Source: Ensifer oleiphilus (GTDB lineage Bacteria; Pseudomonadota; Alphaproteobacteria; Rhizobiales; Rhizobiaceae). From it: a stretch of 64,000 nucleotides of DNA. The stretch covers positions 62,001 to 126,000 of the forward strand of contig NZ_JABWDU010000004.1 in assembly GCF_013371465.1 (NCBI RefSeq), in the 5' to 3' direction. The notes beneath the pieces were generated by a model. It ran no database searches. It saw nothing but the letters and a program-made list of their open reading frames with translations, and was not told the origin of the DNA. Shown piece after piece: positions 3,986 to 21,350 of the stretch; the stretch's first letter is position 1, and the number at the start of each line of letters is the position of its first letter. The position numbers and the translations under genes were made by a program.

Positions 3986-5029
3986 GTGGTCAAGGAGCGG
4001 GTAACGGTGGTGGATATCGCACGCGCAGCCGGCGTGTCGAAGTCGACCGTGTCGCTCGTCCTGCAGGGCAGCTCGTTGGTCAACGAGGTCACGCGCGCCA
4101 AGGTCAATGCGACGATTCGCGAGCTTGGCTATGTCTACAATCGCAGCGCTGCCAATCTGCGCCAATCGAAATCAAAGATCATCGGCATCGTCGTCAACGA
4201 CCTCACCAACAGCTTCTTCGCCGAGCTGGCGGTCGGCGTCGATACCGTCGTGCAGTCGGCCGGCTTCGTCCAGTTTCTCGCCAACACCAGCGAAAAGATC
4301 GAGCGCCAGCGCGAGGTGGTGGCCTCCATGCGCGAGCATGGGGTGTCCGGGCTGATCATTTCCCCGGCGCGCGGCACCGAGGCTGCCGATCTGGCGCCGC
4401 TGGTCGAGAGCGGCATTCCCGTCGTGCTCGTCGTTCGCGATATCGCCGATGCCGGCGTGTCCTCACTGACATCGGACAATCATGCCGGCGCCATGGCGGC
4501 CGTGCGGCACCTGATCGAGCGCGGTCATCGTCGCATCGCCTTCCTCGGCGGCTTCCCGGATACGGCAGTATTCGAGGCGCGCATGCGCGGATACCGCGAC
4601 GCCTTGCTTGAGGCGGGGCTCGACGCGGCGGACGGGCTCGTCATCGGTTCGGCGCCATCGCGTGCCGGCGGCGTGACCGCCATCGAGCAGGCGATGATGC
4701 TTTCCGAGCGACCGACGGCAGCGCTGTGTTTCAACGATGCGGTCGCCTTTGGCGTCTGCGACGGTCTGCGCGCGCGGCGGCTGGAGCCGGGCGCGGACTT
4801 TGCCGTGATCGGCTTCGACGACGTGATCGAGGCGAAAACGGCGGTGCCGGCGCTGACCACCGTGTCGGTCGATCCGCAAGGCATGGGGCAGAGGGCAGCG
4901 GAATTGCTGCTGAAGCAGATCAATGCGGGCAAGGCGGAGGCGGAATCGATTATCGGTTCGGTGCGTCTCGTCGTTCGCCAGAGTTGCGGTGCTGCGATCG
5001 AGCGCAGAACGAGGGAGGCATTGTCATGA
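3986..5029 (+). CDS. LacI-family transcriptional repressor of the anhydro-sugar regulon
   Basis: A 347-residue LacI/GalR regulator. The N-terminal HTH and hinge are clear ([18 protein letters not shown], then the [17 protein letters not shown] hinge-to-core junction), followed by a periplasmic-binding-protein-like effector domain ([37 protein letters not shown]). The GTG at 3986 is chosen as start because GGGAGG lies 5 bp upstream; the ATG at 3953 has no ribosome site and lies at the transcription start. It is the first gene of an operon and overlaps afr by 4 bp (ATGA). Candidate operators are in its own promoter, in the divergent DUF993 promoter and in front of the GMC gene at 18092. The effector is unknown; 1,5-anhydrofructose or a related compound is my inference from afr. 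Confidence 0.9.
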
Positions 5030-6027
5030 CGGGATGGGGGCTGATCGGCGCGAGCACGATCGCGCGCGAATGGGTGATCGGCGCAATCCGCGCGACGGGT
5101 GGCGAGGTTATCTCGGTGATGAGCACCAGCGCCGAGCGCGGCGCGCTCTACGCCACGGAAAACGATATCGGCAAATCGGTAACTTCGGTCGAGGAACTGG
5201 TCGGCGATCCCGACGTCAAAGCCGTCTATGTCTCGACCACCAACGAGCTGCACCGCGAGCAGACGCTGGCTGCCATCCGCGCCGGCAAGCATGTGCTGTG
5301 CGAAAAGCCACTGGCGATGACGCTGGAGGATGCGCGCGACATGGTGGTCGCTGCGCGCGAAGCCGGCGTGGTTCTCGCCACCAATCATCACCTGCGCAAC
5401 GCCGCCGCCCACCGGGCGATGCGCGACGCCATTGCCGAAGGCCGGATCGGCCGGCCGATCGCGGCGCGGGTTTTTCATGCCGTCTATCTGCCGCCGCATC
5501 TGCAGGGCTGGCGGCTGGAACGGCCAGAAGCCGGGGGTGGCGTCATTCTCGACATTACCGTGCACGACGCCGATACCTTGCGCTTCGTGCTCAACGACGA
5601 TCCGGCCGAAGCCGTGGCCATCAGCCACAGCGCCGGCATGGGCAAGGCGGGGCTGGAGGATGGCGTCATGGGTGTGCTGCGTTTCCGTTCCGGCGTGATC
5701 GCCCAGTTCCACGACGCCTTCACCACCAAATTTGCCGAAACCGGTTTCGAGGTGCACGGCACGGAAGGATCGCTGATCGGCCGCAATGTCATGACGCAGA
5801 AGCCTGTCGGCACAGTGACCCTGCGCAATGCCGAGGGCGAAAGCCTGCTGCCGCTCGATGCGGGCAATCTCTATGAGACGGCGCTCACCGCCTTCCATGC
5901 CGCGGTCGAAGGCAACGGCCAGCCGTCGGCGACCGGCGAAGATGGCGTCTGGTCGCTGGCAACCGGCCTTGCCGTCGTCAAGGCTGCGGCGACCGGCCAG
6001 GCGGTTGCGATCGAAACGGGACTTTGA
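5026..6027 (+). CDS. afr: 1,5-anhydro-D-fructose reductase (Gfo/Idh/MocA family)
   Basis: NADPH-dependent reduction of 1,5-anhydro-D-fructose to 1,5-anhydro-D-mannitol. The 333-residue protein has an N-terminal Rossmann fold (GLIGASTIA) and the Gfo/Idh EKP motif with Lys94. It also has Asp176 and His180 ([11 protein letters not shown]), which I recall as catalytic/substrate residues of the Sinorhizobium morelense enzyme. Ser10, Ala13 and Ser33, which set cofactor choice in that enzyme, are all present, and the whole sequence reads as a near copy of it from memory. Translation is coupled to lacI by an ATGA overlap, and the CoA-transferase gene follows after 4 bp. Its placement in a repressed operon argues for a catabolic rather than an incidental role for the reduction. 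Confidence 0.88.
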
Positions 6028-6031
6028 GTTG

Positions 6032-19755: not shown

Positions 19756-20073
19756 ATGATCCGCCACTGTGTCTTCATTCGCTTCCGTCCGGAAATTTCG
19801 GCGGAGGAGAAAACGTCGATCTTCGCCGAGATCGCCGGGCTGAAAAGCCGGCTTCCTGGCCTTCTTGCGACCCATGAGGGTGCCAATGTCAGCCCGGAGA
19901 TCGGTATGGACAAGGGCTATGCCGAAGGCTTCATCGTCGACTTCGCCGATGCCGGCGCGCGCGATGCCTATCTCGCCGATCCGGAGCACCAAAAGACCGG
20001 CGCGAAGATCGTTGCAGCCGCAGAGGGCGGCATCGACGGCATCTTCGTCTACGACCTCGAAATCCCGGATTGA
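19756..20073 (+). CDS. Dabb (stress-responsive A/B barrel) domain protein
   Basis: A 105-residue single-domain protein of the dimeric alpha/beta-barrel Dabb family (start IRHCVFIRFRPEIS, end GGIDGIFVYDLEIPD). Such proteins are small ligand-binding or enzymatic barrels, sometimes catalysing cyclisation or isomerisation. GAGGAAAATC precedes the ATG. It is between a GMC oxidoreductase (8 bp away) and a glycerate kinase (5 bp) and should be cotranscribed. Its role in the pathway is unknown; a lactone or keto-sugar intermediate could be its ligand. Confidence 0.82.
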   Translation: MIRHCVFIRFRPEISAEEKTSIFAEIAGLKSRLPGLLATHEGANVSPEIGMDKGYAEGFIVDFADAGARDAYLADPEHQKTGAKIVAAAEGGIDGIFVYDLEIPD

Positions 20074-20078
20074 CGGAT

Positions 20079-21350
20079 ATGGCAGATTTCGATGCGCGTG
20101 CCTTTCTCACCACTCTTTTCGAGGCGGCCGTGCGTGCTGCCGACCCTTATGAGGCGATCCGTGCGCATCTGCCGGAAAAACCGAAGGGGAGAACGGTCGT
20201 CGTCGGGGCTGGCAAGGCCGCAAGCCAGATGGCGGCGGCCTTCGAGAAACTGTGGGATCACCCGCTGACAGGCACTGTCGTTGCCCGCCACGGGCCGATC
20301 GAGCCCTGCGAGCGCATTCGCGTGCTGCAGTCGGCCCATCCGGTGCCGGATGAGGCGGGCTTGCGGGCGTCTGAAGAACTGCTGAAGCTGGTGGAAGGCT
20401 TGACCGCAGACGATTTGGTCGTTGCGCTGATCTCAGGCGGTGGGTCGTCGCTGCTGCCGGCGCCGCCGGAGGGCATGACGCTTGCCGACGAGATCGCCGT
20501 CAACCGGGCGCTGCTTGCCTCCGGCGCGCCGATCTCGGCGATGAACGTCGTGCGCAAGCATGTGTCGCGCATCAAGGGTGGGCGCCTGGCTGTAGCCGCC
20601 GGTCCGGCCCTTCTCGTCACCCTCGTCGTCTCCGACGTGCCCGGCGACAATCCCGCTTTCGTCGCCTCCGGCCCGACGGTGGCGGACGGCTCGACAGTGA
20701 AGGAAGCGCTTGAGATCGTCGATCGCTATGGCATGGTCCTTCCCGAAGGCGTGATGGCGCATCTGCGATCCGAACGAGCGCATGCGCCCGATCCATCGGA
20801 TGCGATTTTCCGCAGGCACGAATGCCATGTGATCGCTTCGGCGAGCGTCTCGCTGCAGGCGGCCGCGGGCAGGGCTAGAGAGTTGGGCGTCGAGGCCCGC
20901 ATTCTGTCGGATGCCATCGAAGGCGAGGCGCGGGATATCGGCCGCATGCATGCCGCTCTGGCGCGTGAAGTCGCGCTGCGCAATCGGCCGTTCGAAAAGC
21001 CGGTCGTGCTCCTGTCCGGCGGCGAGACCACGGTGACGATAACAGGCAAGGACTACGGCAAGGGCGGCCGCAACAGCGAATTGCTGCTGTCGCTGGCGCT
21101 CGACATCGAGGGGCTCGACGGGGTCGACGCTCTTGCAGCGGACACCGATGGCATCGACGGCTCGGAGGACAATGCCGGTGCCTTTGCCGATGGCAAAAGC
21201 GTTGCCCGCATGCGGGCTGCGGGCGCCGATCCGCGCGCGCATCTGGCCCGCCACGACGCCTGGTCGGCATTTTCGGCGAGCGGCGATCTGTTCGTACCCG
21301 GCCCGACCGGAACCAACGTCAATGATTTCAGGGCAATGCTGATCCGTTAG
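20079..21350 (+). CDS. Glycerate 2-kinase, MOFRL family
   Basis: Phosphorylates D-glycerate to 2-phosphoglycerate, feeding lower glycolysis. The 423-residue protein has the MOFRL/GckA architecture: an N-terminal domain with VVVGAGKAASQMA and LISGGGSSLLPAPPEGMTL, and a C-terminal MOFRL domain with VLLSGGETTVTITG, GKGGRNSELLLSLAL and DTDGIDGSEDNAGAF. I start at the ATG at 20079; a TTG at 20070 overlapping the Dabb stop is an alternative. It is the last gene of the GMC-Dabb operon, which suggests that glycerate or hydroxypyruvate is an end product of the pathway. Confidence 0.9.
   Translation: MADFDARAFLTTLFEAAVRAADPYEAIRAHLPEKPKGRTVVVGAGKAASQMAAAFEKLWDHPLTGTVVARHGPIEPCERIRVLQSAHPVPDEAGLRASEELLKLVEGLTADDLVVALISGGGSSLLPAPPEGMTLADEIAVNRALLASGAPISAMNVVRKHVSRIKGGRLAVAAGPALLVTLVVSDVPGDNPAFVASGPTVADGSTVKEALEIVDRYGMVLPEGVMAHLRSERAHAPDPSDAIFRRHECHVIASASVSLQAAAGRARELGVEARILSDAIEGEARDIGRMHAALAREVALRNRPFEKPVVLLSGGETTVTITGKDYGKGGRNSELLLSLALDIEGLDGVDALAADTDGIDGSEDNAGAFADGKSVARMRAAGADPRAHLARHDAWSAFSASGDLFVPGPTGTNVNDFRAMLIR

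Follow-up and report, generated by a model that had tools for sequence, protein, structure and literature searches.

A conserved LacI-regulated gene cluster around 1,5-anhydro-D-fructose reductase in Ensifer oleiphilus, and a possible coenzyme A-dependent route for 1,5-anhydro-sugars

The window analyzed here is a stretch of 64 kb within the 6.76-Mb genome of Ensifer oleiphilus. Its segment 2496-21350 carries a cluster of ~15 genes around afr, which encodes a 1,5-anhydro-D-fructose reductase (AFR) of the Gfo/Idh/MocA type. Genes were called from lists of open reading frames together with a check of the start codons. At the left end the gene for a DUF993 protein (2496..3668, minus strand; Pfam PF06187, E = 7.2e-189) diverges from lacI1 (3953..5029, plus strand, where the start may be 3986), the product of which is a LacI-family regulator with Pfam LacI and Peripla_BP_3 matches. 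The start of afr (5026..6027, plus strand) overlaps the stop of lacI1 by four bases. It is followed on the same strand by genes for a family I (YdiF-type) coenzyme A (CoA)-transferase (6038..7651), an enoyl-CoA hydratase of the crotonase kind (7644..8423) and an aldehyde dehydrogenase (ALDH) resembling L-sorbosone dehydrogenase (8417..9931). From lacI1 to the ALDH gene the ends overlap or the gaps are short. The CoA-transferase matches Pfam CoA_trans and aligns with YdiF (2ahu, 373 bits) over query residues 6-525, as a fused alpha-beta chain. The hydratase matches Pfam ECH_1, and its best match in the PDB is a 3-hydroxypropionyl-CoA dehydratase. Among structures whose substrate is named, the one closest to the ALDH is the L-sorbosone dehydrogenase 7w5l (542.6 bits); it ranks second to 3u4j, which carries only the name NAD-dependent aldehyde dehydrogenase.

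To the right lies the gene for a second LacI-family regulator, LacI2 (10043..11095, minus strand), which had escaped a first-pass annotation of this DNA and is matched at ≥38% identity in 24 of 48 afr loci. Beyond it an operon on the plus strand encodes a sugar ABC importer. Its solute-binding protein (11401..12645) falls in a glucose-binder family, with scores of 770 bits for 4r2b, 401 bits for 5dvf and 126 bits for the glucose-binding protein 2b3b. Permeases F (12827..13708) and G (13705..14586) and the ATPase (14591..15706) were assigned from their reading frames and from relatives annotated as permeases and as an ATP-binding protein. The genes that follow are all on the plus strand. GMC1 (15713..17209) resembles FAD-dependent sugar dehydrogenases (FAD glucose dehydrogenase 6a2u, 114.9 bits; fructose dehydrogenase, 83 bits), and the short-chain dehydrogenase (SDR; 17206..17985) falls in the 3-ketoacyl reductase group (NF009386, 355.5 bits against a cut-off of 250). 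GMC2 (18092..19747) is of the choline/sorbose-dehydrogenase kind, with choline dehydrogenase as best PDB match and 581.8 bits for NF002550, below the cut-off of 605. It is followed by a Dabb (A/B barrel) protein (19756..20073; Pfam PF07876, E = 8e-17) and a glycerate 2-kinase (20070..21350, where the start may be 20079; 2b8n, 291.3 bits; NF041176, 231.9 bits, below the cut-off of 550). A second glycerate kinase gene lies elsewhere in the genome, outside the cluster. Pfam, NCBIfam or PDB sequence matches thus bear out the first-pass naming of the CoA-transferase, hydratase, ALDH, binding protein, both GMC proteins, SDR, Dabb protein and glycerate kinase. The same annotation had noted DUF993 nearby; the gene is present, divergent from lacI1 and sharing its operators, but it lies outside the span of 5026-21350 then given to the pathway.

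The AFR of the window scores 675.9 bits (E = 7.9e-203) against the crystallized AFR 2glx, with 19 non-identical positions in 330 (~94% identity). Its best relatives not named AFR score 113.6 bits or less. It carries S10, A13, S33, K94, D176 and H180, as had been claimed; we take these to be the diagnostic catalytic and cofactor residues of AFR. Searching with a threshold of E at most 1e-60, we found AFR in all 16 genomes of the genus and in 32 of 151 sampled genomes of the family, the latter representing 26 of 109 genera. The two sets overlap by two genomes, giving 46 afr genomes in 26 genera, and the stretches surrounding afr were compared for all of them. S10, A13, K94, D176 and H180 are invariant in all 48 AFR copies of these genomes, and S33 is present in 46 copies. 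Judged by its sequence, the afr product is a genuine 1,5-anhydro-D-fructose reductase. The catalytic Glu328 of the CoA-transferase is kept in 46/46 genomes, and both catalytic glutamates of the hydratase, Glu114 and Glu134, in 45/45.

The neighborhood of afr is well conserved. A CoA-transferase gene lies downstream of afr on the same strand in all 46 genomes, with a gap below 200 bases in 45 and of 234 bases in one. The hydratase is found in 45 genomes, the ALDH in 44, GMC1 and the binding protein in 43 each, DUF993 and lacI1 in 42 each, GMC2 and the SDR in 41 each, and the glycerate kinase in 28. Neighbors were matched at ≥38% identity, and two extra afr copies of low identity in one genome (G087) were subtracted. 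These counts are lower bounds, as one contig is 4 kb long, others are cut, and three loci (L275-L277) were covered for ~10 kb each way. Within the family afr is strongly associated with the genes for the CoA-transferase and DUF993, a check that the first-pass annotation had offered. That annotation had also held that afr without these neighbors would speak against its pathway. Such copies do occur, though in a minority outside the family (on Bradyrhizobium, Paraburkholderia and Komagataeibacter plasmids) and as the two extra copies of G087 (48 and 42% identity), whose stretches contain no CoA-transferase. Genes flanking the window cluster are hardly conserved in the 30 genomes outside the genus: the TonB receptor is found in none, a class III aminotransferase in two and a class I aminotransferase in one, against 30 for the CoA-transferase, in stretches that sometimes stop short of the flanks. 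Clusters of a similar kind, in part rearranged, are present in Microvirga, Roseibium, Peteryoungia, Paraburkholderia and Caballeronia. The Roseibium cluster is on a 49-kb plasmid, with Porphyridium cruentum given as its source; in Peteryoungia DUF993 and lacI1 are at the far end, and in Caballeronia afr and GMC1 are divergent.

Putative operators connect the parts of the cluster. A palindrome, ATTTGGATCGTTCCAAAT, occurs together with two copies that differ by one mismatch. O1 (3707..3724, one mismatch) lies 39-56 bases upstream of the start of DUF993, O2 (3931..3948, one mismatch) just upstream of lacI1-afr, and O3 (18048..18065), the best copy of the motif, upstream of GMC2-Dabb-glycerate kinase. 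Allowing ≤3 mismatches there are six matches in the window (three places, each on both strands) where 0.04 would be expected. All three copies of the operator core, TTTNGATCGTTCCAA, in the whole genome lie within the cluster. Among the 16 genomes of the genus there are 22 exact sites, each ≤14 kb from afr, whereas a reversed control gave none. At ≤4 mismatches all three LacI1 sites are found in 15/15 other loci of the genus, and in 24 of 25 family loci (L068-L092, L089 having none) there is at least one site near DUF993, lacI1 or afr. At the same threshold no LacI1 site was found preceding GMC2 outside the genus, and the few stray sites lie away from a gene start or at other genes (L137 and L141) or before the binding-protein gene (L066 and L079).

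A different palindrome, resembling AACGTTTTAAA, occurs twice before the importer operon, at 11166..11180 and 11302..11316, each copy with one mismatch to WTAAAACGTTTTAAA. It is likely the site of LacI2. Given which gene starts each palindrome precedes, in the genus LacI1 appears to control DUF993, afr with its followers, and GMC2-Dabb-kinase, while LacI2 probably controls the importer together with GMC1 and the SDR. We considered whether two unrelated units simply lie side by side. This is weakened within the genus, where LacI1 sites flank the importer operon on both sides; outside it, with no site before GMC2, the argument for a joint unit is one of synteny alone. A chance neighborhood is rejected by the synteny in 46 genomes, the shared operators and the poor conservation of the flanks outside the genus. 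The neighborhood of afr is a conserved, jointly regulated unit across rhizobia and their relatives. By gene order in Sinorhizobium meliloti Ak57 we infer that lacI1 corresponds to SMc04401, afr to SMc04400 and the binding-protein gene to SMc04396. SMc04401 is listed as a regulator in the part of PMC4560400 consulted, and the corresponding part of PMC12542648 gives sorbose dehydrogenase, SDR and dehydrogenase as the products of SMc04390-92. Induction of smc04396 by dextrin is mentioned in a passage of PMC4960864 citing Mauchline et al. 2006. A search of the literature under the locus tags SMc04132-04137 and the SMa1400-series returned no functional data.

The cluster also comes apart in informative ways. 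Rhizobial and Paracoccus plasmids harbor a second type of cluster, whose CoA-transferase is ~70% identical to that of the window. In the three type 2 clusters compared (L117, L118 and L119) identity to the window is 69-72% for the CoA-transferase, 49-55% for the hydratase, 64-67% for the glycerate kinase, 51-52% for the GMC2-like protein and 48-50% for the ALDH. Two of the three also have DUF993 (54-58%) and SDR (40%), while in the third, NLR16a, a transposase gene breaks up the cluster. They have another importer and a zinc-type alcohol dehydrogenase, with an acyl-CoA dehydrogenase and electron transfer flavoprotein (ETF) in two of the three; neither afr nor GMC1 was found in any of them. With shared lower enzymes and other entry genes in this second type, the cluster is therefore modular. 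The upper genes recur separately as well. The stretches from a Bradyrhizobium plasmid and from Paraburkholderia PGU19 p2 have GMC1 after afr and contain no CoA-transferase, and the stretch from Paraburkholderia PGU19 p1 has afr and the lower genes and contains no GMC1. A Komagataeibacter plasmid has a 49% identical afr homologue with neither GMC1 nor CoA-transferase in its stretch. Among the 21 plasmid records classed, out of 33 with afr, the CoA-transferase adjoins in 18 (15 by matched positions, three by inspection) and does not in three. This separate recurrence makes GMC1 and AFR look like partners that oxidize and reduce C2, and the CoA enzymes like a common lower pathway.

Exchange is seen within the clusters too. 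At least two subtypes of GMC1, ~64% alike, are swapped between clusters that are colinear in other respects. Over 14 genomes compared, the same holds for the binding protein (G142, G097 and G087) and not for the CoA-transferase and GMC2. Elsewhere, in locus L176 (7352-16939), a CoA-transferase and an enoyl-CoA hydratase accompany a Gfo/Idh gene, an apparent TRAP importer and a mandelate-racemase-type enzyme, which suggests a sugar acid as substrate.

DUF993 is extremely conserved. A model built from 27 sequences, with a predicted local distance difference test (pLDDT) score of 88.8, has a fold that matches 4dnh and then dihydrodipicolinate synthases; 4dnh is SMc04132, of unknown function. Among the 50 Foldseek matches listed, 4dnh apart, the target template modeling (TM) score reaches 0.82. 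In a profile alignment with 11 proteins of the dihydrodipicolinate-synthase family from the same genome (hhalign, E = 3.7e-6, probability 87%), Lys229 of DUF993, near the end of strand 225-230, falls on the Schiff-base lysine of the family. By model and alignment, DUF993 shares the TIM-barrel fold and the Schiff-base lysine on strand 6 of the dihydrodipicolinate synthase / N-acetylneuraminate lyase superfamily, and is a predicted Schiff-base C-C lyase. In Bradyrhizobium, Variovorax and others, Gfo/Idh and xylose-isomerase-like genes accompany DUF993, and one locus (L185) has it next to a gene of the enolase superfamily. In the open-access literature searched, the name DUF993 was absent. We also note a protein of ~450-500 amino acids (L180, 6230-7723, and relatives) with no Pfam match at 1e-8. 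In Bradyrhizobium and others it lies between an NMT1-type importer (assigned by eye) and Gfo/Idh-DUF993-isomerase genes, and looks enolase-like by eye. In Raoultella planticola and Dryocola (L245 and L251), DUF993 stands with an ALDH, a GMC protein, ETF, an acyl-CoA dehydrogenase and an isomerase-like gene.

These genes are most naturally read as a CoA-thioester route that leads to glycerate, for which we infer the substrate and the order of steps. We propose that the segment is a regulon devoted to the catabolism of 1,5-anhydro-sugars, acting by way of an acid at C6 and its CoA thioester, and assign this a probability of roughly 0.45. The substrates would be 1,5-anhydro-D-fructose (AF), and probably 1,5-anhydroglucitol and 1,5-anhydromannitol (AM), both of which are made by some plants. 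The sugar would be taken up by the ABC importer, and the membership of its binding protein in a glucose-binder family supports this. The dextrin induction mentioned for SMc04396, the presumed S. meliloti ortholog of the binding-protein gene, also counts in favor of the regulon. GMC1 would oxidize 1,5-anhydroglucitol at C2 to AF, which AFR would reduce to AM, so that the pair epimerizes C2. GMC2 and the ALDH would then take the primary alcohol at C6 through the aldehyde to the carboxylate, 1,5-anhydromannuronate. This conversion of primary alcohol to acid, the substrate needed by the CoA-transferase, is argued from the likeness of the ALDH to L-sorbosone dehydrogenase and from the kind of GMC2. 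The CoA-transferase would form the thioester at C6, acidifying H5, and the hydratase would eliminate the C4 hydroxyl from 1,5-anhydromannuronyl-CoA. In this compound H5 and OH4 are syn, fitting the requirement of crotonases. The resulting enol ether would open, in a step to which the scheme assigns no enzyme, to a 2-keto-3-deoxy-hexonyl unit, and DUF993 may cleave this between C3 and C4 in a retro-aldol reaction, giving a pyruvyl unit and D-glyceraldehyde (C1-C3). D-Glyceraldehyde would be oxidized to D-glycerate, which the glycerate kinase would then phosphorylate. The Dabb protein, like the SDR, has no place in this sequence. On stereochemical grounds the C2 center of AM would become C2 of the three-carbon product, the manno configuration leading to D and the gluco configuration to L. 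The first enzyme would thus be a reductase making AM because the manno form would yield a D-configured three-carbon unit. In its fullest form the proposal is a complete aerobic route, in rhizobia and their relatives, from 1,5-anhydro-sugars of starch and plant origin to pyruvate and D-glycerate via a C6 acid and its CoA thioester, which the enoyl-CoA hydratase would dehydrate, with AFR setting the D-configuration and DUF993 a new Schiff-base lyase family used in at least three pathways. That whole is unlikely to hold in every part.

Several observations weigh against the proposed regulon. The SDR is without a role in the scheme. We take a GTTGE carboxylate-binding loop and a catalytic tyrosine on strand 5 to be motifs of the dihydrodipicolinate synthase family; DUF993 has neither, the aligned stretches being EAMDT and HWLG. 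Going by the missing loop and tyrosine it is a relative of the superfamily and not a known member, and it may act on something other than a 2-keto acid. In Oryzibacter (L237, 700-11158) the CoA-transferase, ALDH, GMC1, SDR, GMC2, Dabb protein, glycerate kinase and DUF993 are kept, with no match in the stretch to afr, lacI1, the importer or the enoyl-CoA hydratase. The hydratase may therefore be dispensable, or lie elsewhere. Since the type 2 clusters have the lower enzymes without afr, these enzymes can serve other substrates. Lastly, a strain grown on AF is credited with turning AM into mannose, according to section 5.1 of a review (PMC12441222), which credits a 2006 paper with this aerobic sequence from AF through AM to mannose, in which an unidentified P450-like enzyme acts on AM. 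The first-pass view that work on AFR describes the single enzyme is corrected by this account.

The published route might be the whole story, with AFR making AM, a P450-like enzyme encoded elsewhere hydroxylating C1 to give mannose, and the neighbors serving another sugar that shares the regulator. The same section describes it for S. morelense, and P450 genes are present in 46/46 afr genomes. Because all 46 have them, their presence cannot decide for or against this route. However, no P450 was found among the cluster genes scanned (Pfam, NCBIfam), the nearest to afr among the matches listed, which include four of the five in the genome of the window, is 56 kb away (G130), and the conserved order and operators bind the other genes to afr. 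We regard this explanation as quite unlikely, although the genome as a whole may still take part in that route. It is somewhat improbable, too, that the cluster degrades another native substrate, such as a 2-keto-pyranoside, a deoxy-sugar or a starch-derived product, with AF reduction a side activity of AFR. The use of the lower enzymes in clusters without afr would fit this, as would the swapped subtypes of GMC1 and binding protein, suggesting more than one substrate, and the dextrin induction of the presumed binding-protein gene SMc04396 mentioned in PMC4960864. Yet dextrin could itself yield AF or anhydroglucitol. AFR came from a strain isolated on AF, as the section of PMC12441222 relates, and all 48 AFR copies retain S10, A13, K94, D176 and H180, with S33 retained in 46.

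The same substrate might instead be degraded in the manner of beta-oxidation, with the SDR oxidizing a beta-hydroxyacyl thioester and DUF993 cleaving the beta-keto product to glycerate or glyceryl-CoA. The place of the SDR in the 3-ketoacyl reductase group fits this. In two type 2 clusters the CoA-transferase, hydratase, SDR and DUF993 are joined by an acyl-CoA dehydrogenase and ETF, and the gene table of these clusters, which is incomplete, contains no thiolase. A precedent is the BKACE proposed in deoxyribonate breakdown (PMC6365646, section 7). The ring acid, however, already has a beta-hydroxyl, so the hydratase would be idle. The kin of DUF993 are Schiff-base aldolases and are not known to include the metal-dependent BKACE family. 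On balance such a course is rather doubtful.

The proposed regulon has parallels among known systems. The account of S. morelense S-30.7.5 (Kuhn, Yu and Giffhorn 2006), as far as the review passage goes, shares with it AFR as first enzyme, AM as product and an aerobic rhizobial relative as host, but proceeds by P450-like C1 hydroxylation to mannose. The window cluster, with no P450 among the genes scanned, has genes for oxidation, CoA activation, hydration or dehydration, a candidate C-C lyase and glycerate kinase. An anaerobic glycyl-radical route for 1,5-anhydroglucitol-6-phosphate and 1,5-anhydromannitol-6-phosphate, with YbiW and PflD, is also covered there (PMC12441222). It degrades the same polyols, but with phosphotransferase uptake and oxygen-sensitive radical enzymes, neither of which is among the cluster genes identified. 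Neither route is described as using CoA in those sections. The nearest analogue is the deoxyribose/deoxyribonate pathway (Price et al. 2019, PMC6365646), where, in the part consulted, a deoxy-sugar is converted to an acid, with CoA chemistry, C-C cleavage and a glycerate kinase. It differs in having a molybdenum-dependent dehydrogenase, a lactonase, an SDR and BKACE; section 7 of that paper names no enoyl-CoA hydratase, AFR or DUF993. GMC2 and the ALDH of the window have a parallel in the L-sorbose/L-sorbosone dehydrogenase pair, whose ALDH appears closely related to that of the window. That pair, in the route to a vitamin C precursor, is a GMC flavoprotein and an ALDH that take a primary alcohol of the sugar to a carboxylate, and the route ends at 2-keto-L-gulonate with no CoA step.

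Searching titles and the starts of abstracts on AF or anhydroglucitol catabolism or on these genes, a search in which most subscription papers were not covered, we found no description of the cluster. As a kind of sugar-catabolic regulon it is known, and the chemistry would be new if confirmed. An aerobic, conserved regulon in which a genuine AFR is paired with a GMC protein makes a direct candidate list. 1,5-Anhydroglucitol is a polyol of blood, and its phosphate is toxic in two rare neutropenias. The pathway would suggest a first role for DUF993, and would be a further example of a sugar skeleton processed by CoA-thioester chemistry.

Two further groups of genes lie to the right of the cluster. 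Window positions 23825-30548 hold genes for a class I aminotransferase, an ALDH, an FAD-linked oxidase, a 2-oxoadipate dioxygenase (Pfam HGLS) and a LysR regulator, a set that presumably belongs to lysine/2-aminoadipate catabolism, which it resembles. Positions 30908-39535 encode a protein of 2875 amino acids with GH94 domains, which we take to resemble cyclic beta-1,2-glucan synthase.

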